The notes under the pieces were generated by a model. It did no database searches. It saw nothing but the letters and a program-made list of their open reading frames with translations, and was not told where the DNA came from. A stretch of 64,000 nt of DNA from Enterobacter sp. JUb54 (lineage in GTDB: Bacteria; Pseudomonadota; Gammaproteobacteria; Enterobacterales; Enterobacteriaceae): NCBI RefSeq assembly GCF_014298075.1, contig NZ_CP060418.1, positions 3,410,001 through 3,474,000 of the forward strand, in the 5' to 3' direction. This document shows, piece by piece, positions 1 through 53,766 of this stretch; the stretch's first letter is position 1; every line of letters starts with the position of its first letter. The translations under genes and the position numbers were made by a program.

Positions 1-573
1 GAAATCCAGATTGCCATCATCCAGCAAGCGATACAGCGACGAAAAACCAAAGACAGTCGCGCCTTCATCCAGTACCGTCGCCAGTTGATCCTCCAGCAAA
101 CAGCGGGACAATTCTGAACGGTTACTATCGGTGGTAATTAGCTTTTCCAGTTGATGGCTGAAGGTTTGCGGATACCAGATAGCATCCGGCGCTGCCACGT
201 CTTTCGTGCTGTTAATCAGGGTATCGAGCATACTGTTGTGAATAATCAACAGCGCTGTTTGGGCAAAAACGCCGCTGCGCCCTGCAACTTCATCGCGCAA
301 ATGAGAAATGTAGTTTTCTGTGAATGCTGGAGCCTCGGCACCGTGCAGTACAGGAATAAGCTGAACACCATTGCAGGGAAGGCAATCAATATATTGCCCT
401 GGCACAATTTCCAACTGATTGCCGTCCGCCAGAGAGACGAATGCTTCCCAGAGTTTTAGGGCATTATCGGGATCGGGAGATTTGAACTGGTAGCGCTCGC
501 CGGGCTGAATGATGCCACCTACCCATTCAATAAAGGTTTCGGCCAGATAGGTTTCATACTGTTTTACGGACAT
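1..573 (-). CDS. dptH: DptH, phosphorothioation-dependent restriction protein (5' part only)
   Basis: Open reading frame running off the left edge; 191 codons are visible from an ATG at 573 (MSVKQYETYLAETFIEWVGG). In dpt/dnd clusters the gene after dptF and dptG is dptH, a large ATPase-like component needed for restriction of DNA lacking phosphorothioate marks. The identification rests mainly on order and direction: it starts inside the last codons of dptG (20-bp overlap, 554-573), which implies translational coupling. The ATPase motifs would lie further along, outside the window, so intactness cannot be judged. No shift or stop is seen in the visible part. Confidence 0.75.
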   Translation of the reverse strand, partial: MSVKQYETYLAETFIEWVGGIIQPGERYQFKSPDPDNALKLWEAFVSLADGNQLEIVPGQYIDCLPCNGVQLIPVLHGAEAPAFTENYISHLRDEVAGRSGVFAQTALLIIHNSMLDTLINSTKDVAAPDAIWYPQTFSHQLEKLITTDSNRSELSRCLLEDQLATVLDEGATVFGFSSLYRLLDDGNLDF

Positions 574-1879
574 ACACGGCGTCTCCACTATCACTCATTC
601 GCTCTACATTTCCCATGCGTTCATAAAACGCCACCAGCGTTTGCGCCGACTGGTTGTCCAGATAAAAACCGCGCTGTTCAAAACCACGCAGCAGTTCGTG
701 CAGGCGGAGTTTGTCATTTTTGCCCACAGTGAGATTGGTCAGCAACAGAAGACGATCCTGATTCAGCACCAGCACTTTCCCTGCCCGACCACGCACCTGA
801 ATGAAGTCAGTGCAAATCTGGTTTTCCAGCTCATTAACGTATTTACGATTTACCGTCGCGCGGTCAGTTTTTTTACCCTGGAACTGCTCTACGGCAACGG
901 ATAAGAGCTGTTTGAAGGCATTTTCCAGGTTTGTTGCGCGTTCACGAGCTGGAAGATCTCGTTCTTCCTTACTAATAAATTTTTGTATGTAATCATTAAG
1001 CTCATCTAACACTTGATTTGGGGTGCCCGAATAACTCAAACAATCCTGATATACCTGCCAGAGAGGGCGTTTTTTCGCCCCTTTTACCTGCAACACCTCC
1101 AGCGCGGAAAGTATCGGGAACAGTTTTTCGCTCTGGCTGGCGAACAGCTTATAGCCATAACGTTTCACCTTTTCCCGTTCAGAGCTGGCTTTTTCGCTAT
1201 CAAGAATAAAAAACAGCGATTTGCTTTGTGGTTCACCGTCCTGCCAGTTGTCCAGATTGAGCGCCAGTTGAGCGCACCAGCTAAAGGCGTACAAACGTAG
1301 GGTGTTGGTCAATTCTTGTAAAAGGTATTGTGGGTGCTCCGCCAAAAACGCCAGATCGGACTGAAAACACGTGACCATATACGGAAGATAGGGTTGCTCT
1401 TCGGCAAAAGGTCCTTTCCCCAGCAATTTTATTTTTTCATTGAGCTTATTCAGCATTTGCTGCTCAATGAAGTTCAGTCTGTCCTGTATGGGGTAACGAA
1501 GGCTGAAATCGCCCATCAAATTGGCAAATAGCGTGCCAAGTCGTTTATCTGCCGTTGAACCGGCACTTATTTTTTCACCATTAAACTGGGCGTGGAACAG
1601 TAAAAAAAGTGGGGAGACACGGAAAATATCCTGACTGGAAAAATACATCCGTTCCAGCACGGACCAGAATGCAGGCTCATCAAGCAGCTCCTGCAGATGT
1701 GTTTTACAATCTTCACGGAATTGTTCGGGATCGTAAGCTTCGATTTTGCGTTTCAGGGCGTAGCTAAGGACCAGACCGGTGACGAATTGCCAGCTAATAT
1801 CGTTATTTTTATTGCGCACAGGCAGGTAACTATCCAGTTGATTGTTACCCACTTTTAACTCGTTTGCGATAGGGTACAT
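554..1879 (-). CDS. dptG: DptG, phosphorothioation-dependent restriction protein
   Basis: 441-residue protein recognised as DptG, one of three proteins (DptF, DptG, DptH) that attack DNA lacking phosphorothioate modification in Dnd systems of Salmonella and E. coli. I see no catalytic motif or membrane segment; it is a soluble, helix-rich protein and the family has no well-defined biochemical role. The ATG at 1879 follows a good GGAGG ribosome site eight bases upstream, placed at the end of dptF. Only four bases separate it from dptF, and dptH begins before its stop, so the three form one leftward operon. Length and start look complete. Confidence 0.83.
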   Translation of the reverse strand: MYPIANELKVGNNQLDSYLPVRNKNNDISWQFVTGLVLSYALKRKIEAYDPEQFREDCKTHLQELLDEPAFWSVLERMYFSSQDIFRVSPLFLLFHAQFNGEKISAGSTADKRLGTLFANLMGDFSLRYPIQDRLNFIEQQMLNKLNEKIKLLGKGPFAEEQPYLPYMVTCFQSDLAFLAEHPQYLLQELTNTLRLYAFSWCAQLALNLDNWQDGEPQSKSLFFILDSEKASSEREKVKRYGYKLFASQSEKLFPILSALEVLQVKGAKKRPLWQVYQDCLSYSGTPNQVLDELNDYIQKFISKEERDLPARERATNLENAFKQLLSVAVEQFQGKKTDRATVNRKYVNELENQICTDFIQVRGRAGKVLVLNQDRLLLLTNLTVGKNDKLRLHELLRGFEQRGFYLDNQSAQTLVAFYERMGNVERMSDSGDAVYVRKTV

Positions 1880-1883
1880 TCTG

Positions 1884-3533
1884 CTAACCCTCCATACCGC
1901 TAATAGTGATCATATCGTCATCCGCCTTTGCACGATAAACCCGTTGTCTGCCATCATAAAATTTGATTTCGCTGCTGGATTTAGCCTGCTCCGCGATCAA
2001 CTCAACAATTTCATCCAGTAACACGATGGCATTTTTATCGTATTTATTCGGACGATAGCCATTATTCAACTTGTCCAGTAATTCGAACAAATTAAGCCCG
2101 ATATGGATATGCGGCAGTGGATTTCGCCCCACCTTTAAATAGACATCGAAGCCAGTTGGATGAGCCGTATGTTTATTACGGATAGCATCCCAATCAGGCT
2201 TCACCTCTACCGGTGCGGTTATTTTCACCCCACCAAACTCACCCAAAAAGAACTCTTCTTTTTGCATACTTAATTCAGGTGCTTTGCGGTTAGCATAGCG
2301 CTGGATACCCGCGATAAGCTCAAAAGCATAGAAGCGATTCAGTGATCTTTTTTGCTCCGGATCTGCTGTGTAATTTCTATGCAAATGCCAGATTTCTGAG
2401 TAACGTTCAAACAACGATTCGTTAAAGAACGCGGAAAATCTCCGATGATAATCATTACCCAACGACTCGTGCTGCAACAGCCAGAAAAGCCGGATCAAGG
2501 AGGTTGCGTCACCGGGCTTAACGCTCTGGCGCTCAAACTTAATGTGCAACGGCTCAAGTGCGGCTAAAAAATCATCGAGATCAGCGTCAACCAGTCCCAG
2601 TTCATAGCGCAAAACAAACTGATCAAGTTCATAGGTGTGCAATCTGGCGGGATCAAAATCGGAAACTTTTTTAATCAGATCATTTTCTGCACCGATGAAG
2701 AGATTATCAAATAAGTAGCCAGGCCCCATCAACAGATGATGCAGAAAGTCCAACAGCGTTCGGGTCGTGACAAACTGGTCTTTAATCAACCGCGCTTTAA
2801 AGAGCTGCGTAATTAATACATTCTGCACGCCAGGCATGCAAAGCAATTTAAAGTTTGCGACCTCTTTTAGATCTGGATTAATTAACTCATCGCGCCGAAA
2901 GATAAACTGAAATAAATTGTTATCATCGTCTCGAGTTAAGTTATCTAATAAGGCTTTAATAAATGATGAATAGTTTTTATTTTCGTTAAACTGGAATTTA
3001 GGATAGTGTTCAAAATCAAAAAAAGAACAATTCTCGTTACGATAAGGACGGCTTGCATCCTGATGCCCTGATAAAAATGAGTCAATTGCAGACCGGATCA
3101 CCTTATGGCATTCAGCACCTTCTCGGGCAAAGTTGGCAAGCATTCCGGTGTTGATGCCAATGAGCAATGGAGATGACTGCTGATGATGATTAGCAAATAA
3201 CTCATTCAAAGCATCAATAGCTGATTGTCGAGGGGCAAAACTATGAGTGGCATCCAGATGGAAAATAAATCGCCGCTGATAACGCGGATCTGACTGACAG
3301 CGGGTTAAAATTTCGGACTTTCCATCCCCGCTACTGCCGCACAAAAAAATGATTTCACCGGGTTTAGCAACATCCAGATAGCGTTGTAATTCGGTTTCAA
3401 TTTCTTGTTTAACAAAGAGTTGTTCCTTTAACTGATCGAACTCATCCTTCTGACGGTGTGTCACGGTGGTGACGGAAAACGAAGATGACTTCGCAAGTAC
3501 ACCCAACGCTTTACGTAATGTGATTGCGCTCAT
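1884..3533 (-). CDS. dptF: DptF, phosphorothioation-dependent restriction ATPase
   Basis: About 549 residues. A P-loop GSSGDGKS lies near residues 66-73 (FLCGSSGDGKSEIL), marking a nucleoside triphosphatase; the rest matches DptF, the first protein of the DptFGH restriction complex that acts with DndBCDE modification enzymes. I chose the ATG at 3533 (MSAITLRKALG), preceded by AGAGAACATGAAGTT. An in-frame GTG at 3563 would add ten residues and has no ribosome site. It is the first gene of the operon and lies directly inward of the island integrase. The modification genes dndBCDE are not in the window, so whether this host is marked cannot be told. Confidence 0.85.
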   Translation of the reverse strand: MSAITLRKALGVLAKSSSFSVTTVTHRQKDEFDQLKEQLFVKQEIETELQRYLDVAKPGEIIFLCGSSGDGKSEILTRCQSDPRYQRRFIFHLDATHSFAPRQSAIDALNELFANHHQQSSPLLIGINTGMLANFAREGAECHKVIRSAIDSFLSGHQDASRPYRNENCSFFDFEHYPKFQFNENKNYSSFIKALLDNLTRDDDNNLFQFIFRRDELINPDLKEVANFKLLCMPGVQNVLITQLFKARLIKDQFVTTRTLLDFLHHLLMGPGYLFDNLFIGAENDLIKKVSDFDPARLHTYELDQFVLRYELGLVDADLDDFLAALEPLHIKFERQSVKPGDATSLIRLFWLLQHESLGNDYHRRFSAFFNESLFERYSEIWHLHRNYTADPEQKRSLNRFYAFELIAGIQRYANRKAPELSMQKEEFFLGEFGGVKITAPVEVKPDWDAIRNKHTAHPTGFDVYLKVGRNPLPHIHIGLNLFELLDKLNNGYRPNKYDKNAIVLLDEIVELIAEQAKSSSEIKFYDGRQRVYRAKADDDMITISGMEG

Positions 3534-3692
3534 AACTTCATGTTCTCTAAAGTAGGAATACACCTATTCTATAAAAGCTACCCACTGATATCTATAGGCT
3601 CTTTGACACATTCATTACGAGCAATTTCAAAATTGTGTATTTTCCTTTCCGTCCATGAAACACATCCAGAGATGGCGGGTCAAGTCCATACA

Positions 3693-3722
3693 TCAACCAG
3701 CTTCACTTTGGAAGCTGGTTGA
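3693..3722. terminator. 12-bp perfect hairpin between dptF and the integrase
   Basis: Inverted repeat with 12-bp arms (TCAACCAGCTTC / GAAGCTGGTTGA) and a 6-base loop, about 30 bp beyond the integrase stop. It lacks a clear run of T on either strand, so it may be a weak or factor-assisted terminator, or a boundary that shields dptF from integrase transcription. The rest of 3534-3750 shows no gene; dptF transcription must start here. Confidence 0.5.
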
Positions 3723-3750
3723 TTGATTGTATATTAATTAAACATATACA

Positions 3751-5016
3751 CTAAATATTACCACGATTGACTTTTGCATAGTCAAACGGCGTAATCCCAC
3801 TCTCCCGATTCCCATCCAGAAAGTCAGCCCACCATTGCAGCATCAGTTTGCGTTCATCCAGATGCTCTGCTTTATGAATATAAGCCGCACGTACTAAGTT
3901 ACGCTCCATATGGCTCATCTGACGCTCTACCGCATCCCTCGACCACAACCCTGATTCAATCAACGAACTACAGGCCATTGTTCTGAAACCATGCCCACAA
4001 ACCTCCACCTTAGTGTCATATCCCATGACGCGCAGTGCCTTGTTCACCGTGTTTTCACTCATGGGCTTATGAGGGTTATGATCGCCAACGAAAACAAAGT
4101 CACGATCACCACTGATCTTGTGGACCTGTTGAAGGATTACTAATGCCTGACGAGACAGAGGAACTAAATGAGGTGTGCGCATTTTAGAACCTCGTTGCGA
4201 ATGCTTAACACCTTCTATAGCTTCTCGTTCTGCCGGGATTGTCCACATTGCCCTTTCAAAATCGATCTCGGGCCAACGAGCAAAGCGCAACTCACTGGAA
4301 CGAATAAAGATTAATAACGTGAGCTCAACAGCCAGACGGGTTAAAGGTCGTCCGGAGTAGCTATCAATTCGCTGGAGTAGTTCAGGTAAGCGTTTCAGTT
4401 CAAGTGCTGGTCGATGGACACGATTACTTGAAGCAACTGCCCCAGCCATCTCCTGAGCAGGATTGTAATCGATCAAACCGCTTTGCACTGCATAACGCAT
4501 AATCGCATTGGTACGCTGCTGAAGACGCGAAGCCACTTCAAGACGCCCTGTAGCCTCAACTACTTTGATAGGGACAAGGAGATCGCGCGTACTAAAACTA
4601 TCAATACTCCGCTTCCCAATTGCTGGGAACAAATTATCTTCCAAGCTCTTCAGCACCCGTCGGCTATGTTCTTCTGTCCATTTTTTATTTGCTGCGTGCC
4701 ACTCTCTGGCAACTGACTCAAAGGTAATAGCCTCTTTCGTCTGCTCTTCTTTCACTGCACGTTTGTGTTCACGGGGATCGATGCCTGCAGCAACAAGCTT
4801 TCTGGCCTCTTCCCTTTTTTGACGAGCATCTGCCAGTGACGTTTCAGGATAAACCCCAAATGCCATCAGGTGCTGCTTACCACCAAAGCGAAAGCGGAAC
4901 CGCCAGTATTTTGAGCCGTTAGGGTGAATGAGCAAAAACATGCCATCCCCATCGACAAGGGTATACTCCTTTTCCTGTGGTTTTGCTGAGCGCACTTTGA
5001 TATCTGTCAGAGCCAT
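3751..5016 (-). CDS. P4-like tyrosine integrase of a leuX genomic island
   Basis: 421 residues, the usual size for P4-type integrases that insert islands at tRNA genes. The N-terminal DUF4102/arm-binding domain (MALTDIKVRSAKPQEK) is followed by a core-binding region near 100-190 and the catalytic domain. Visible active-site residues are Arg239 (IRSSELR), His342 and Arg345 (HGFR), His369 (MSHME) and Tyr379 (RAAYIHK). The ATG at 5016 has an AAGGAG site seven bases upstream. It reads in the same direction as leuX, about 200 bp from the tRNA 3' end, as in many leuX islands. The full catalytic set suggests the island could still excise. Confidence 0.93.
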   Translation of the reverse strand: MALTDIKVRSAKPQEKEYTLVDGDGMFLLIHPNGSKYWRFRFRFGGKQHLMAFGVYPETSLADARQKREEARKLVAAGIDPREHKRAVKEEQTKEAITFESVAREWHAANKKWTEEHSRRVLKSLEDNLFPAIGKRSIDSFSTRDLLVPIKVVEATGRLEVASRLQQRTNAIMRYAVQSGLIDYNPAQEMAGAVASSNRVHRPALELKRLPELLQRIDSYSGRPLTRLAVELTLLIFIRSSELRFARWPEIDFERAMWTIPAEREAIEGVKHSQRGSKMRTPHLVPLSRQALVILQQVHKISGDRDFVFVGDHNPHKPMSENTVNKALRVMGYDTKVEVCGHGFRTMACSSLIESGLWSRDAVERQMSHMERNLVRAAYIHKAEHLDERKLMLQWWADFLDGNRESGITPFDYAKVNRGNI

Positions 5017-5041
5017 AAAAGCTCTCCTTCCATGTGCCGAA

Positions 5042-5140
5042 GTGAGTATACAACCATTATCGAACCAACAAATATACTCGGTTCTATACTCACAAGCGAC
5101 TTGATGTGGGTTGACTCAGATTGACTTAGGTTGAGTGAAA
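5042..5140. repeat. Inverted repeat and four 10-bp iterons between integrase and leuX
   Basis: Two kinds of repeat lie just upstream of the integrase. GTGAGTATA (5042-5050) and TATACTCAC (5085-5093) form a perfect 9-bp inverted pair, with a further TATACTC at 5073-5079. Next come four TTGA-led repeats in exact 10-bp register at 5101, 5111, 5121 and 5131 (TTGATGTGGG, TTGACTCAGA, TTGACTTAGG, TTGAGTGAAA). The position between int and the attachment site suits integrase arm-type sites, excisionase sites or an autoregulated int promoter. The repeats are seen; the role is inferred. Confidence 0.55.
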
Positions 5141-5178
5141 AAGCGAGGAAAGCCTTGCGGATACTGGATTTCTGGCAC

Positions 5179-5202
5179 AAAAAAAGACGTCCGTTGACGT
5201 CT
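5179..5202 (-). terminator. Rho-independent terminator of leuX
   Basis: On the minus strand AGACGT, loop, ACGTCT is followed by seven T, starting about 14 bases after the tRNA 3' end. A textbook intrinsic terminator that should separate leuX from the integrase gene. Confidence 0.85.
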
Positions 5203-5215
5203 ATTGATGTTCCGA

Positions 5216-5237
5216 TGGTGCCGAAGGCCGGACTCGA
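5216..5237 (-). other. Probable attachment-site core in the leuX 3' end
   Basis: P4-type islands at leuX normally recombine within the last ~20 bases of the tRNA, from the T-loop through CCA. The integrase lies immediately beyond this segment. The partner repeat at the far island end would be left of position 1, so the exact core cannot be read here. Confidence 0.5.
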
Positions 5238-5300
5238 ACCGGCACGTATTTCTACGGTTGATTTTGAATCAACTGCGTCTACCGATTTCGCCACTTCGGC
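5216..5300 (-). tRNA. leuX: tRNA-Leu (CAA anticodon)
   Basis: 85-nt leucine tRNA including an encoded CCA end. The acceptor stem GCCGAAG pairs with CTTCGGC, the anticodon loop reads TTCAAAA (anticodon CAA), and there is a long variable arm and a GGTTCGAGTCC T-loop. It reads UUG leucine codons. This gene is a well-known integration hot spot; here the 3' end faces the integrase and dpt genes, so the island rebuilt an intact tRNA. Confidence 0.97.
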
Positions 5301-5326
5301 ACTGAAGGGATACGGAAACGTTGTGG

Positions 5327-5354
5327 ATTATACCTGTCGATGGCCGCCATGCAA
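5327..5354 (-). promoter_or_regulatory. leuX promoter
   Basis: On the minus strand TTGCAT (-35), a 16-bp spacer and a perfect TATAAT (-10), ending 27 bp before the tRNA 5' end. The remaining DNA up to ahr (5355-5560) shows no convincing gene. Confidence 0.75.
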
Positions 5355-5560
5355 GCGCCAGCGTATGCCAGCCTCGCTAAGTGTTGAAAAAAACAGCGTT
5401 TAGTCCCTCAACTCTCCGTTGCTGCTCCCCGCAACGCCTCAGCGCCGCCATTTCCCTCACGCCTCCTTCTGCCAAGCGCCTACCCGCCCGATGCTCTACA
5501 CTTTCTGTTTATCTGAGCCTGGCCAGACAACGCACACTACGCCAAACCAAGGAAACCGTC

Positions 5561-6580
5561 ATGAGCACCATTAAAAGCTACGCCGCCAAAGAAGCGGGCG
5601 CCGACCTGTCGCCATGGGAATACGACGCGGGCGAACTGCTGCCCCAGGACGTCGAAGTGCAGGTTGAATACTGCGGGATCTGCCACTCTGACCTGTCGAT
5701 GATCGACAACGAATGGGGCATGTCGAGCTATCCGCTGGTTGCCGGCCACGAAGTGATCGGCCACGTCTCGGCGCTGGGCAGCTCAGCGCAGAATAAAGGA
5801 CTGAAGATCGGCCAGAAGGTGGGGATCGGCTGGACCGCCCGCAGCTGCGGGCACTGCGACGCCTGTATCAGCGGCAACCAGATCAACTGCCTGGAAGGCT
5901 CGGTACCGACCATCATCAACCGTGGCGGCTTCGCCGATAAACTGCGCGCCGACTGGCAATGGGTGATCCCCCTGCCGGAAAGCATCGACATCGAAACCGC
6001 AGGCCCTATGCTCTGCGGCGGCATCACCGTCTTTAAACCCCTGCTGATGCACCACGTCACCGCCACCAGCCGCGTCGGCGTCATTGGTATCGGCGGCCTG
6101 GGCCACATCGCCATCAAACTGCTGCACGCCATGGGTGCGGAAGTTACTGCCTTTAGCTCGAATCCGGCGAAAGAGCAGGAAGTGCTGGCAATGGGTGCCG
6201 ATCGTGTGGTCAACAGCCGCGATCCGCAAGCCTTAAAAGCGCTGGCCGGTCAGTTTGACCTGATCATCAACACCGTCGCGGTGGACCTCGAATGGCAGCC
6301 GTACTTTGAAGCGCTGGCCTACGGCGGCAACTTCCACACCGTCGGCGCGGTGATGAAACCCCTGCAGGTCCCGGCCTTTACCCTGATTGGCGGCGACCGC
6401 AGCATCTCCGGCTCGGCCACCGGCAACCCGTCTGAACTGCGCAAGCTGATGAAATTTGCCGGGCGCAGTAAAGTTGCCCCGACCACCGAACTGTTCCCGA
6501 TGTCGCAGATCAACGATGCCCTGAAGCACGTGCGCGATGGCAAAGCCCGCTATCGCGTGGTGCTGAAAGCCGACTTCTAA
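5561..6580 (+). CDS. ahr: NADPH-dependent aldehyde reductase Ahr (YjgB)
   Basis: 339 residues, a zinc-dependent medium-chain alcohol dehydrogenase close to E. coli Ahr (340 aa), which reduces a broad range of aldehydes with NADPH in the cytoplasm. Visible features are the catalytic-zinc motif CGICHSD (Cys38), GHEVIG, a structural-zinc Cys cluster ([15 protein letters not shown]) and the Rossmann loop GIGGLGHI. The frame is open back to 5381 but the MSTIKSYA start at 5561 matches the family. Ahr next to leuX is the E. coli arrangement. A strong terminator follows, so it is probably a single-gene unit. Confidence 0.93.
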
Positions 6581-6595
6581 GCACGACGCTCCCCC

Positions 6596-6622
6596 GCCGG
6601 GCGCCCTTGCGCCCGGCATTTT
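6596..6622 (+). terminator. ahr terminator
   Basis: GCCGGGCGC, loop CCTT, GCGCCCGGC, then ATTTTGC: a 9-bp GC stem with a short T run, 15 bases after the ahr stop. Confidence 0.85.
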
Positions 6623-6639
6623 GCTACCACTTCATCAAA

Positions 6640-6671
6640 CCGTCATCTCCCCGCCATCCCTTTGCAGTCAT
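6640..6671 (+). promoter_or_regulatory. Possible Pho box upstream of the gpdQ operon
   Basis: CCGTCAT (6640), four bases, CCGCCAT (6651) resembles the PhoB pattern of two CTGTCAT repeats 11 bp apart, with mismatches; another CAGTCAT lies at 6665, out of register. PhoB control would fit an operon that releases phosphate esters, as for ugp in E. coli. Weak match, inference only. Confidence 0.3.
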
Positions 6672-6723
6672 TCGTTCCCACAATCCGGGCTTCCACAAAC
6701 GCCTGAACGAGACGTCTGCCACC

Positions 6724-7596
6724 ATGAGAAAAACCTGGCTCCCCTGGCTGATACTGTCGCCTTCTCTGCTGTTTTTACTGCTGTTTACCTGGTTCCCGCT
6801 CGGCCGTTCGGTATACGACAGCCTGTTCGACACCCGCATGGCCAGCGACGGCGCGCCCTTTGTCGGGCTGGATAACTTCGCCCGCCTGTTTGCCGATAAC
6901 GTCTTCTGGCAATCGCTGCTCAATAACCTGCTCTACATCCTGCTGACGGTGATCCCCGGCGTCACCCTGGCCCTGCTGCTGGCGGTGGCCCTCAGCGAAA
7001 ACCACCGCGTGAACCGCTGGCTGCGCACCGCCTTCTTCTTCCCGATGATCATTCCGATGGTCAGCGCCGCCGCGCTGTGGCTGTTTATCTTTATGCCCGG
7101 TCTCGGCCTGCTGGACCACTATCTGGCAAAGCTCTTCGGCCCGATGAATACCAACTGGCTGGGGCACAGCAACAGCGCGCTGCTGGCGCTGGCGCTGATT
7201 GGCGTGTGGAAGTTCGCCGGCTACTACATGCTGTTTTTCCTCGCCGGGTTGCAGAGTATCCCGGCCTCCACTCGCGAAGCGGCGATAATGGAAGGAGCCA
7301 CCCGCAGCCAGGTGTTCTTTAAGGTCACCCTGCCGCTGCTGCGCCCGACCCTCAGCTTCGTCATCACCACCGCGCTTATCTACTCCATCACCCAGATTGA
7401 CCACGTGGCGGTGATGACCCGCGGCGGGCCGGACAACGCCACCACCGTGCTGCTCTACTACATCCAGAATCTGGCGTGGGATACCCACGACCTCGGCAAA
7501 GCCTCTGCCGCCACCTTCCTGACGCTGGCCGGGCTGTTCGCCTTCTCGCTGATCAACCTGAAACTGCTGGAGAAAGGAGCGCACTATGAGCGCTGA
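6724..7596 (+). CDS. ABC transporter permease (UgpA/MalF type) of the gpdQ operon
   Basis: 290 residues with a hydrophobic N-terminus (LILSPSLLFLLLF) and six predicted membrane spans; binding-protein-dependent permease family. The cytoplasmic loop that docks on the ATPase reads EAAIMEGATRSQVFFKVTLP. The ATG at 6724 is chosen because the membrane segment begins at once after it; the frame extends back to 6607 without a ribosome site. First gene of a five-gene operon, overlapping the next by 11 bp. With gpdQ inside the operon the likely cargo is a glycerophosphodiester or related phosphoester. The substrate is inferred from context. Confidence 0.85.
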   Translation: MRKTWLPWLILSPSLLFLLLFTWFPLGRSVYDSLFDTRMASDGAPFVGLDNFARLFADNVFWQSLLNNLLYILLTVIPGVTLALLLAVALSENHRVNRWLRTAFFFPMIIPMVSAAALWLFIFMPGLGLLDHYLAKLFGPMNTNWLGHSNSALLALALIGVWKFAGYYMLFFLAGLQSIPASTREAAIMEGATRSQVFFKVTLPLLRPTLSFVITTALIYSITQIDHVAVMTRGGPDNATTVLLYYIQNLAWDTHDLGKASAATFLTLAGLFAFSLINLKLLEKGAHYER

Positions 7597-8473
7597 AGCC
7601 TCACCGCCGCTGCTGCGAGAGCGGCAGCGATCCCACCCGCTGTGGCTGCGCCTGCGTCGTTCACAGTCGTTTACCCTCAGCGTGCTGATGGCCTGCCTGG
7701 CGCTGCTGTGGGTCAGCCCGCTGCTGTGGATGCTGGCGACCGCCTTCAGCGCCACCACCTTCGGCGAAGACATGGCCTCGCTGCTGCCGCGCCCGCCGCT
7801 GACCCTCGATAACTTCCGCGACGCCTGGGCCAGCGCCGACTGGCTGAGCCTGTACGCTAACACCCTGATCTTCACCTTCGGCACCTTCATCGTGCAACTG
7901 TTCACCATCACCACCGCCGGGTACGTCTTCGCCTGCCACGAGTTCCGCGGCAAACAGACGCTGTTCCTGCTGTTTTTGGTGCAGCTGATGATCATGCCGG
8001 TGGTGATGATGGTGCCGAACATGCTGACCCTGAAAACCTTCGGCCTGCTCAACACCCTCACCGGGGTGATGATGCCCTACTTCACCTCGGCGTTCGGCGT
8101 GTTCCTGATGCGCCAGGCGTTCCTCGCCATCCCCAAAGAGCTGGAAGAAGCTGCCCTGATGGAGGGCTGTCGTTGGTGGCAGGTGCTGTTCCGCGTGCTG
8201 CTGCCGATGTCCTGGCCGTCGGTGCTGGCCTTCGCCACCGTCAGCATTACCTACCACTGGAACGAGTATCTGTGGCCGCTGATGATGCTCAACGATCCCG
8301 ATAAACAGGTGCTCACCGTGGGGCTAGTCTCCTTCGCCATGGGCGCCGAATCCGGCGGCCAGTGGGGCACCATCGGCGCCGGTACCTTGATGGTCTGTCT
8401 GCCGCTGATGCTGGCGTTCATCCTTTTCCAGAAACAGTTCCTGCGAAGCTTCGGCTTCTCCGGGATCAAATAA
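7586..8473 (+). CDS. ABC transporter permease (UgpE/MalG type) of the gpdQ operon
   Basis: 295 residues, the second membrane subunit, with six predicted spans. The conserved EAA loop is present as [21 protein letters not shown]. Its N-terminus carries a charged tail of about 30 residues before the first span. The start lies inside the end of the upstream permease gene (11-bp overlap), so the two are coupled and should form a heterodimer in the inner membrane. The gpdQ start follows ten bases after the stop, behind a GGAGT site. Confidence 0.86.
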
Positions 8474-11708: not shown

Positions 11709-11720
11709 CCCTTGCCCTTC

Positions 11721-12384
11721 CCGGTGGCGCTGCGCTGACCGGGCTACCGGATCACCACTGCCTGAAGTTAGTAGCCCGGACAGGCGCCACGCGCCGCCTC
11801 CGGGATGACGCACTCCCCGGTGGCGCTGCGCTGACCGGGCTACCGGCTCACCACCGTCTGAGATTTAGTAGCCCGGACAGGCGCCACCCGCTGCCTCCGG
11901 GATGACGCACTCCCCGGTGGCGCTGCGCTGACCGGGCTACCGGCTCACCACCGTCTGAGATTTAGTAGCCCGGACAGGCGCCACCCGCTGCCTCCGGGAT
12001 GACGCACTCCCCGGTGGCGCTACGCTGACCGGGCTACCGGCTCACCACCGTCTGAGATTTAGTAGCCCGGACAGGCGCCACCCGCTGCCTCCGGGATGAC
12101 GCACTCCCCGGTGGCGCTGCGCTGACCGGGCTACCGACTCACCACCGCCTGAAGTTAGTAGCCCGGACAGGCGCCACCCGCCGCCTCCGGGATGACGCAC
12201 TCCCCGGTGGCGCTGCGCTGACCGGGCTACCAGCTCACCACCGTCTGAAGTTAGTAGCCCGGACAGGCGCCACGCGCCGCCTCCAGGATGGCGCACTCCC
12301 CGGTGGCGCTGCGCTGACCGGGCTACCAGCTCACCACCGTCTGAGGTTAGTAGCCCGGACAGGCGCTACGCGCCGCCTCCGGGA
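11721..12384. repeat. Tandem REP/BIME array, seven units of 96-97 bp
   Basis: Seven head-to-tail copies begin at about 11721, 11817, 11914, 12011, 12108, 12204 and 12300. Each unit holds a pair of opposed REP palindromes: CCGGTGGCGCTGCGCTGACC with GGGCTAC, then GTAGCCCGGACAGGCG with CGCCTCCGGG. Copies differ at a few bases. They lie between the gpdQ operon and xynR and fill most of the 773-bp gap. REP arrays can stabilise or terminate mRNA and bind gyrase or IHF. The short open frames inside are by-products of the repeat. Confidence 0.92.
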
Positions 12385-19682: not shown

Positions 19683-20118
19683 CCCCGGAGGCGGCGCGTA
19701 GCGCCTGTCCGGGCTACAGGCCCCAACGGCGGTGAGCCAGTAGCCCGGTCAGCGCAGCGCCACCGGGGGAAATCGGCTCGGTCTGATTCGCGGGTTCCGT
19801 GGTTAGCCCCGGAGGCGGCGCGTGGCGCCTGTCCGGGCTACAAGCCCCCAGACGGTGGTGAGCCAGTAGCCCGGTCAGCGCAACGCCACCGGGGAGTGCG
19901 TCATCCCGGAGGCGGTGCGTAGCGCCTGTCCGGGCTACAGGTCCCAGACGGCGGTGAGCCAGTAGCCCGGTCAGCGCAGCGCCACCGGGGGAAAACCGGC
20001 TCGGTCTGATTCGCGGGTTCCGTGGTAAGCCCCGGAGGCGGCGCGTAGCGCCTGTCCGGGCTACAGGGCCCCAGACGGCGGTGAGCTGGTAGCCCGGTCA
20101 GCGCAGCGCCACCGGGGG
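19683..20118. repeat. Second REP array, four units with a shared spacer
   Basis: Four copies begin near 19683, 19806, 19904 and 20029 (intervals about 124, 98, 125 bp). Each pairs CCGGAGGCGGCGCGTAGCGC with CTGTCCGGGCTAC and the opposed TAGCCCGGTCAGCGCAGCGC with CACCGGGG. A ~34-base spacer (GGCTCGGTCTGATTCGCGGG core) follows three of the four units, so the copied unit is larger than a simple REP pair. It lies between the ends of the xylonate and inositol modules; no gene is seen. Confidence 0.9.
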
Positions 20119-20168
20119 AAATCGGCTCGGTCTGATTCGCGGGTATTGTGGTGATAAGCGTGAAGGGG

Positions 20169-36235: not shown

Positions 36236-37750
<1,515 letters not shown>

Positions 37751-41862: not shown

Positions 41863-41882
41863 CTTCTCAGCGCCGTGATCCT

Positions 41883-42129
41883 CCCCGGTGGCGCTTCGCT
41901 GACCGGGCTACAGGTGCGTGCAATTTGGTAACCCGGACTGGTACCGAGCGCCGCCTCCAGCATTTCCCCGGTGGTGCTTCGCTGACCGGGCTACAGGTTC
42001 GTGCGATTTGGTAACCCGGACTGATGCCGAGCTCCGCCTCCGGCATCTCCCCGGTGGCGCTTCGCTGACCGGGCTACAGGTGCGTGCGGTTTGGTAGCCC
42101 GGACAGGTGCGGAGCACCGCCTCCGGGAT
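41883..42129. repeat. REP array of three 83-bp units
   Basis: Units start near 41883, 41966 and 42049, exactly 83 bp apart: CCCCGGTGGCGCTTCGCTGA with CCGGGCTACAGG, a GTGCG-containing spacer, then an opposed REP ending CGCCTCC. It occupies the gap between the convergent yjgM and miaE genes. Confidence 0.9.
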
Positions 42130-53492: not shown

Positions 53493-53766
53493 AAACAGTC
53501 CCTCCGCGCTCGCACAAGCGAACGCAGCACAACTGACAGGCGCAACAAAACGCTACCTGTCAGGTATTATTTTTTTATGGCAGGGACATCAAGGACGTCA
53601 CTGCTTTACGCTTCCGGTAAAGCAGTGCTAAGCAGGCTTACCGGAAAAGAGAGTTACTCCATCGAGGATGAGGAGTGGGATCGGGGTCCATAAAATCTCC
53701 GGTAAGTGAGGAAAAACGGCGCAGACTATAGCGCAACCAGCGGGCAAGTTGAACCCGCTGTCGCCA
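53493..53766 (-). promoter_or_regulatory. mgtA 5' leader (Mg2+-responsive)
   Basis: About 270 bases from the probable start site to mgtA, containing the mgtL leader peptide and several inverted repeats. In Salmonella and E. coli this leader stops transcription at high Mg2+ and reads through at low Mg2+ or low proline. Presence of mgtL and position support the same here; the stem-loops were not folded. Confidence 0.7.
53638..53691 (-). CDS. mgtL: mgtA leader peptide MgtL
   Basis: 17 codons, MDPDPTPHPRWSNSLFR, with GGAG five bases before the ATG. Same length and the same M-x-PDPTP start as E. coli MgtL. Its Pro and Asp codons make ribosome stalling sensitive to Mg2+ and proline, which sets the fold of the leader and expression of mgtA. 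Confidence 0.9.
   Translation of the reverse strand: MDPDPTPHPRWSNSLFR

Follow-up and report, generated by a model that had tools for sequence, protein, structure and literature searches.

The right end of an integrative island lies in a stretch of DNA from Enterobacter sp. JUb54 that was analysed here at its full length of 64,000 nucleotides (the window; bases 3410001-3474000 of the single 5,304,724-base contig of its genome, G000). The intact tRNA gene leuX is the integration target at this end, and the island's integrase sits directly beside it. The first cargo is the restriction operon dptFGH of a DNA phosphorothioate (Dnd) system, which is transcribed leftward, away from leuX. These features of the window are as follows.

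5216-5300, minus strand: leuX, tRNA-Leu with anticodon CAA, intact (ARAGORN; Rfam RF00005 at 5219-5300)
3751-5016, minus strand: tyrosine integrase of the island, 421 amino acids (Arm-DNA-bind_3, Phage_int_M and Phage_integrase, each above its Pfam cut-off)
1884-3563, minus strand: dptF (dndF), TIGR03238, 426.9 bits (cut-off 50)
554-1879, minus strand: dptG (dndG), TIGR03236, 299.3 bits (cut-off 20)
1-594, minus strand: 5' end of dptH (dndH), a gene that continues left to G000:C1:3405492

An initial annotation of the window had placed an integrase with a full catalytic set beside an intact leuX, and had named the first cargo as a DptF-DptG-DptH operon pointing away from the tRNA. The first claim agrees with the domain matches, the ARAGORN prediction and the R, HxxR, H and Y residues that are visible by eye in the translation. 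The second is upheld by the profile searches that the annotation had proposed, which assign all three proteins above the NCBIfam cut-offs. The portion of DptH inside the window scores 146.3 bits, below the cut-off of 620.65 for TIGR03237, and the whole protein (G000:C1:3405492-3410594, 1700 amino acids) reaches 1201.7 bits. With such scores, chance is excluded as the source of these assignments. An integrase copy that is 95% identical also stands next to leuX in the same-genus genome G001 (L097). The island is one that we take to be of the CP4 type.

The same annotation had noted that the modification half of the system was not in view. This is true of the window, but the modification genes lie just beyond its left edge, so dptFGH is not an orphan. 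In the stretch of G000 that reaches left of the window (L002, in which position 6485 is G000:C1:3396485), four genes with open frames are found that converge on dptFGH.

L002 8651-9748, plus strand: dndB, 466.0 bits (cut-off 328)
L002 9745-11379, plus strand: dndC, 540.4-540.7 bits (cut-off 290.4)
L002 11327-13378, plus strand: dndD, 502.2 bits (cut-off 245.85)
L002 13375-13731, plus strand: dndE, 77.1 bits (cut-off 71.85)

All four exceed the NCBIfam equivalog cut-offs, and all are intact. They occupy the interval from 6.3 kb (end of dndE) to 11.4 kb (start of dndB) left of the window, where the annotation had suggested that dndBCDE be sought. The view that dptFGH is a module lacking modification genes draws on the fact that only dptFGH is visible inside the window, and the presence of dndBCDE refutes it to the point where we give it almost no credence. 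The annotation's concern that such a module would be toxic or inert has no bearing on this genome. We gave the NCBIfam equivalogs preference over the labels of PADLOC, in which REase_II on DptF (window 1884-3563) and MTase_II on DndC (L002 9745-11379) and DndE (L002 13375-13731) outscore its own Dnd models; automatic labels can thus mislead.

No gene above the cut-off for DndA was found in the G000 genome. The best desulfurase match, at G000:C1:53739 and away from the island, is IscS, which exceeds the cut-offs of two IscS models. ATP-binding motifs are visible by eye in the translations of DndC, DndD, DptF and DptH. Because dndBCDE is intact and iscS is present in the chromosome, the predicted system of dndBCDE, dptFGH and chromosomal iscS is complete by gene content.

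Two further genes follow dptH and are candidates for accessory functions.

L002 13780-14985, minus strand: DGQHR protein 1, TIGR04172, 476.6 bits (cut-off 450), open frame
L002 14936-15460, minus strand: small gene, 174 amino acids, AgrB-like match of 21.3 bits (below the Pfam cut-off of 23)

The DGQHR protein also matches the Pfam DndB family (36.6 bits, cut-off 29.1), and its best match among solved structures (E 0.0026 over 65 residues) is not convincing. Our guesses are that it may regulate the system and that the adjoining small gene may act with it. Both members of the pair (L002 13780-15460) are present in G108, at 86% and 85% identity respectively, and a gene occupies the same place in Escherichia coli ET490.

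The left side of the island is less straightforward. A second copy of the leuX 3' end, which the initial annotation had expected to the left, was not found as a direct repeat at the island's far end, either base by base in 60 kb or in the whole genome at the sensitivity of BLAST. Specifically, when words of at least 11 were compared, window positions 5001-5330 shared no exact stretch longer than 12 bp with these 60 kb, none of the 14-mers from the leuX end occurs there, and a whole-genome BLAST search with window positions 5150-5300 gives a next best place of 70% identity over 81 bases (E 0.0013). The claim of a leuX island end therefore stands for the right side, with its integrase and cargo, and not for a left side bounded by a second leuX repeat. 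When words of at least 14 from the leuX end and its flank were compared with 24 loci, G000 yielded leuX itself alone. Repeats away from leuX were found in G295 (L099, 55 bp) and G001 (L092, 36 bp), and shorter repeats of the leuX end in G153 (L094), G138 (L155) and G143 (L133).

An explanation is offered by ET490 (NZ_CP100947.1), in which approximately 8 kb of genes lie to the left of the gene called gp2 and include those for CbtA/YeeU, RadC, an antirestriction protein, DUF932 and a GTPase. This left arm (8158 bp) aligns in G001 over positions 264-8151 at 89-93% identity, and in Enterobacter sp. Bisph1 (G193) over 1810-8158 at 95%, as far as the Bisph1 contig reaches. G000 retains just the final 56 bp of the arm, and L003 and L005 retain none of it. 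We infer that G000 probably lost the island's left arm of about 8 kb by deletion, together with the attachment repeat that it would have held. The second leuX repeat is missing, apparently because this arm was deleted.

The missing half of the island is now located, and its left end can be resolved to the base. There, the element adjoins a gene for an EcoWI-like endonuclease that would combine a sulfur-binding domain (SBD) with an HNH nuclease.

L002, ending at the junction at 6485 (G000:C1:3396485): truncated SBD-HNH gene, EcoWI-like, NF045808
L002 6540-7127, plus strand: gp2, a name taken over from the annotated counterpart in ET490
L002 7228-7434, plus strand: alpA, named from the same annotation
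L002 7537-8112, plus strand: 191-amino-acid gene (p191), named as hypothetical in the matching ET490 stretch

The truncated gene covers positions 2-193 of the 284 in NF045808 (279.6 bits) and includes the sulfur-binding domain. The HNH end (profile positions 194-284) is absent, the conserved HNH columns are not kept in the G000 frame, and the genome holds this single match to the SBD-HNH profile. The same-genus genomes G001, G153, G295 and G303 carry intact, similarly oriented SBD-HNH genes at a distance of 24-32 kb to the left of leuX. At the junction, SBD-HNH homology (78-81% to G153 and G295) stops where element homology starts. The two homologous stretches abut at one base and have one nucleotide in common, and this tidy join is what might be expected if the element had simply inserted into the SBD-HNH gene with no deletion. 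We regard such an insertion as very improbable, given that the HNH end is found nowhere else in the genome and not beyond the element's other side, that the element's own left arm is gone, and that the site of the integrase is leuX rather than the SBD-HNH gene. From these alignments we conclude that a presumed deletion removed the left arm and its attachment repeat and cut the HNH end off the resident gene.

An open frame of 428 codons now runs from the SBD remnant into gp2, which retains its own start codon. We considered and rejected the notion that this frame encodes a purposeful reader-nickase. Since ET490 has gp2 annotated as a separate gene that is preceded by the same 56 bp, the fusion is best read as a deletion scar. 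Beside the truncated gene, at L002 4712-5715, are a SymE-like gene and an HNH gene, and similar genes sit left of leuX in same-genus relatives.

Taken together, the comparisons make us highly confident that the locus represents the leuX-side end of an integrative island with a predicted complete Dnd cargo, whose left arm was lost at the junction along with the HNH end of a neighbouring gene. By analogy with characterised homologues, IscS would provide sulfur, and DndC, DndD and DndE would insert phosphorothioates into host DNA, probably at GAAC/GTTC, a target borrowed from E. coli B7A and Salmonella Cerro 87. DndB would restrain the operon (PMC4507180), and DptFGH would nick and translocate on unmarked incoming DNA (PMC11662687). 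One deletion, or several in succession, would have eliminated the left arm, the repeat that it carried and the neighbour's nuclease end. Thereafter, the island could presumably no longer excise by means of its own integrase, and the SBD-HNH neighbour could no longer cut marked DNA. Several points weigh against this account. Marking and restriction are predictions from gene content, and the loss may have involved one deletion or more. The integrase that adjoins dptF in ET490 is incomplete, and leuX is at most a putative site there. Finally, the E. coli counts given below cast doubt on the neighbour having endangered marked DNA.

Whether the loss of the nuclease end was selected deserves separate consideration. 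On this proposal, one cell could not accommodate both a writer and a phosphorothioate-dependent endonuclease whose specificities match, and truncation of the SBD-HNH gene would have been favoured. Published work lends it some plausibility: EcoWI cuts GpsAAC/GpsTTC DNA and blocks dnd+ plasmids (PMC7461809), and homologues from E. coli and Morganella restrict transfer of a Salmonella dnd cluster (PMC6224610). Our survey of named dndC loci, restricted to the best 80 of 247 (28 enterobacterial by title and 52 others) with flanks of up to 10 kb, can also be read in its favour. With an SBD-HNH profile derived from 18 of 30 family loci, namely those reading through in the orientation as stored, pieces of the gene were found at three of the 28 enterobacterial loci and an intact gene at none, in flanks several of which are short, so that pieces may be missed. 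The three pieces are these.

Salmonella diarizonae (L171): 35-residue tail
Photorhabdus khanii (L173): first third
P. tasmaniensis (L177): gene with an internal loss

The other 52 loci point the other way, with an intact SBD-HNH gene at ten and a broken one at five. Intact genes thus lie near dnd at 10 of the 80 named loci overall, all of them near dndBCDE in Vibrio, Grimontia, Pseudoalteromonas and Alteromonas (L195, L196, L198, L199, L207, L214, L218, L220, L221 and L225). All ten are on the dptH strand, and six lie no more than 250 bp from the edge of the best dptH alignment. It is possible that these marine-type loci hold a phosphorothioate-reading nuclease inside the dnd/dpt cluster. When the ten intact sequences and the internally deleted L177 were aligned, the HNH His, Asn and Cys columns proved to be kept in all 11. 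The sulfur pocket carries Tyr in all 10 dnd-linked sequences with a residue there, versus Met in 31 of 33 lone enterobacterial enzymes, a set in which the alignment is poor for at least one sequence across the sulfur-binding part and for two across HNH, such that the best columns reach 32 or 31 of 33. The pocket His is replaced by Asn in 5 of the 11 dnd-linked sequences, and their sulfur binding is therefore not assured. SBD-bearing HNH nucleases in Dnd loci are already in print. A wHTH(SBD)-SAD-HNH architecture is recorded in the Dnd locus for 698 taxa, 197 of these with DndFGH (PMC10853773), and predicted phosphorothioate-dependent enzymes near a dnd cluster were put at less than 3.6%, with about 65 cases unresolved (PMC7461809). 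EcoWI-like SBD-HNH endonucleases are covered by PMC7461809, PMC9521924 and PMC6224610.

Within the family (295 genomes), dndC exceeds its cut-off in 19 and the SBD-HNH profile in 40. The latter are found in 2 of the 19 genomes with dndC (G000, truncated, and G143, intact) versus 38 of the 276 others, numbers that are too small to decide the matter. The intact case, Leminorella grimontii (G143; L133 1742-2239 and L149 8514-9416), speaks against selection by having both dndBCDE and, on a different contig, the SBD-HNH gene intact. So do broken copies in same-genus genomes that lack dndC, namely a truncated one in G300 and one in G305 that is interrupted by an insert with a transposase. Matches of 26 residues to the SBD near dndC in G002 and G255 (26.3 bits) were set aside as too short. 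In the stretch of G143 that was examined, dptF and dptH fragments are joined as a scar. The dndC of the same-genus genome G302 (L150) scores 666.7 bits, higher than that of G000, and G081 has a similarly high-scoring dndC that is just 34% identical to that of G000.

Further evidence on this question comes from a collection of 5426 E. coli genomes, in which co-occurrence was calculated by inclusion-exclusion from separate and joined searches. Matches to dndC occur in 204 genomes, to the HNH piece in 2102 and to either in 2188, which gives 118 with both; a middle SBD-HNH piece occurs in 2090 and either this or dndC in 2177, which gives 117. The joined search dropped two places for the HNH piece (2365 versus 2158 + 209) and none for the middle piece (2304 versus 2095 + 209). 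EcoWI-like pieces are therefore present in 117-118 of the 204 E. coli with dndC (57-58%), above the 38.0% (1984/5222) of the others, for an odds ratio of 2.2, in figures that take clonal kin as separate genomes and pieces that do not prove each copy intact. Strains W5-6, YJ4 and M505 are common to the dndC and SBD-HNH lists among the best 60 matches of each, and W5-6 has a complete SBD-HNH frame of 290 amino acids. The 5' piece of the gene matches 4442 of the 5426 genomes, and the match spans 80% of the piece in just 1720, which indicates that remnants are common with or without dnd. In a limited literature search, covering the accessible parts of the sources, we did not find a genome-level count of dnd and SBD-HNH in E. 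coli, and we do not claim that none is in print.

We consider this coexistence to be a more important result than the locus itself. An enzyme type that cuts GpsAAC/GpsTTC is not depleted among E. coli that carry dndC, a finding difficult to reconcile with the barrier that transformation assays show. We had first suspected that dnd and SBD-HNH exclude each other, but these counts contradict this, as do the dnd loci at which the SBD-HNH gene is intact. We therefore judge it unlikely that the truncation in G000 was selected. Given the coexistence in E. coli, the intact genes at dnd loci and the remnants in genomes lacking dnd, the disarming in G000 is best read as a local event, incidental or helpful at most, and not as an instance of a rule. 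A more speculative proposal, which we think rather improbable, is that writers and SBD-HNH nucleases are working partners. The nuclease would be kept in check in Dnd+ cells and freed, as a backup or a means of cell suicide, once a phage interferes with the mark. G000 would be a case in which the partner lost its nuclease, and the sulfur-reading remnant, joined in frame to a Rep-like protein, might still be produced. It takes its support from the co-occurrence above expectation in E. coli and from the nuclease gene in the dnd/dpt clusters of marine gammaproteobacteria. The locus illustrates that a single junction can cost an island its distal attachment site and also disable a restriction gene next to it.

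Elsewhere in the window, Rfam matches to Ysr276 RNA and a magnesium riboswitch occur at 36797-36991 and 53592-53706, respectively. Similar-looking G+C-rich tandem arrays with units of 83 to 223 bp lie at 11720-12384 (6.9 copies of 97 bp, 95% match), 19684-20144 and 41881-42126.

Among the closest known relatives of the island is that of ET490, which has the same order as G000 (gp2-alpA-hypothetical-dndBCDE-DGQHR1-hypothetical-dptHGF) and 93% DNA identity across the gp2-alpA stretch. The two differ in that ET490 keeps the left arm and has the incomplete integrase, whereas G000 lacks the arm and has a whole integrase at leuX. Bisph1 carries gp2-alpA-p191-dndBCDE, a DGQHR protein of 39% identity and dptH on a contig that also holds a leuX end; gp2-alpA-p191 is present in G001, but no dndC match was found in that genome. 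The truncated neighbour resembles the EcoWI-type SBD-HNH enzymes (NF045808) in its whole sulfur-binding domain and in the HKP and MPFW motifs of enterobacterial relatives. It departs from them in having lost the HNH end, with an open frame that continues into gp2. As described in PMC11662687 and PMC7461809, the IscS-DndBCDE and DndFGH/DptFGH systems of Salmonella enterica Cerro 87 and E. coli B7A share with G000 the writer genes, with IscS replacing DndA, as well as the three restriction genes and their convergent arrangement. G000 differs from these systems in the DGQHR protein 1 and the small gene that follow dptH. Judged by its predicted gene content, the G000 locus is an ordinary and complete Dnd island of the standard type.

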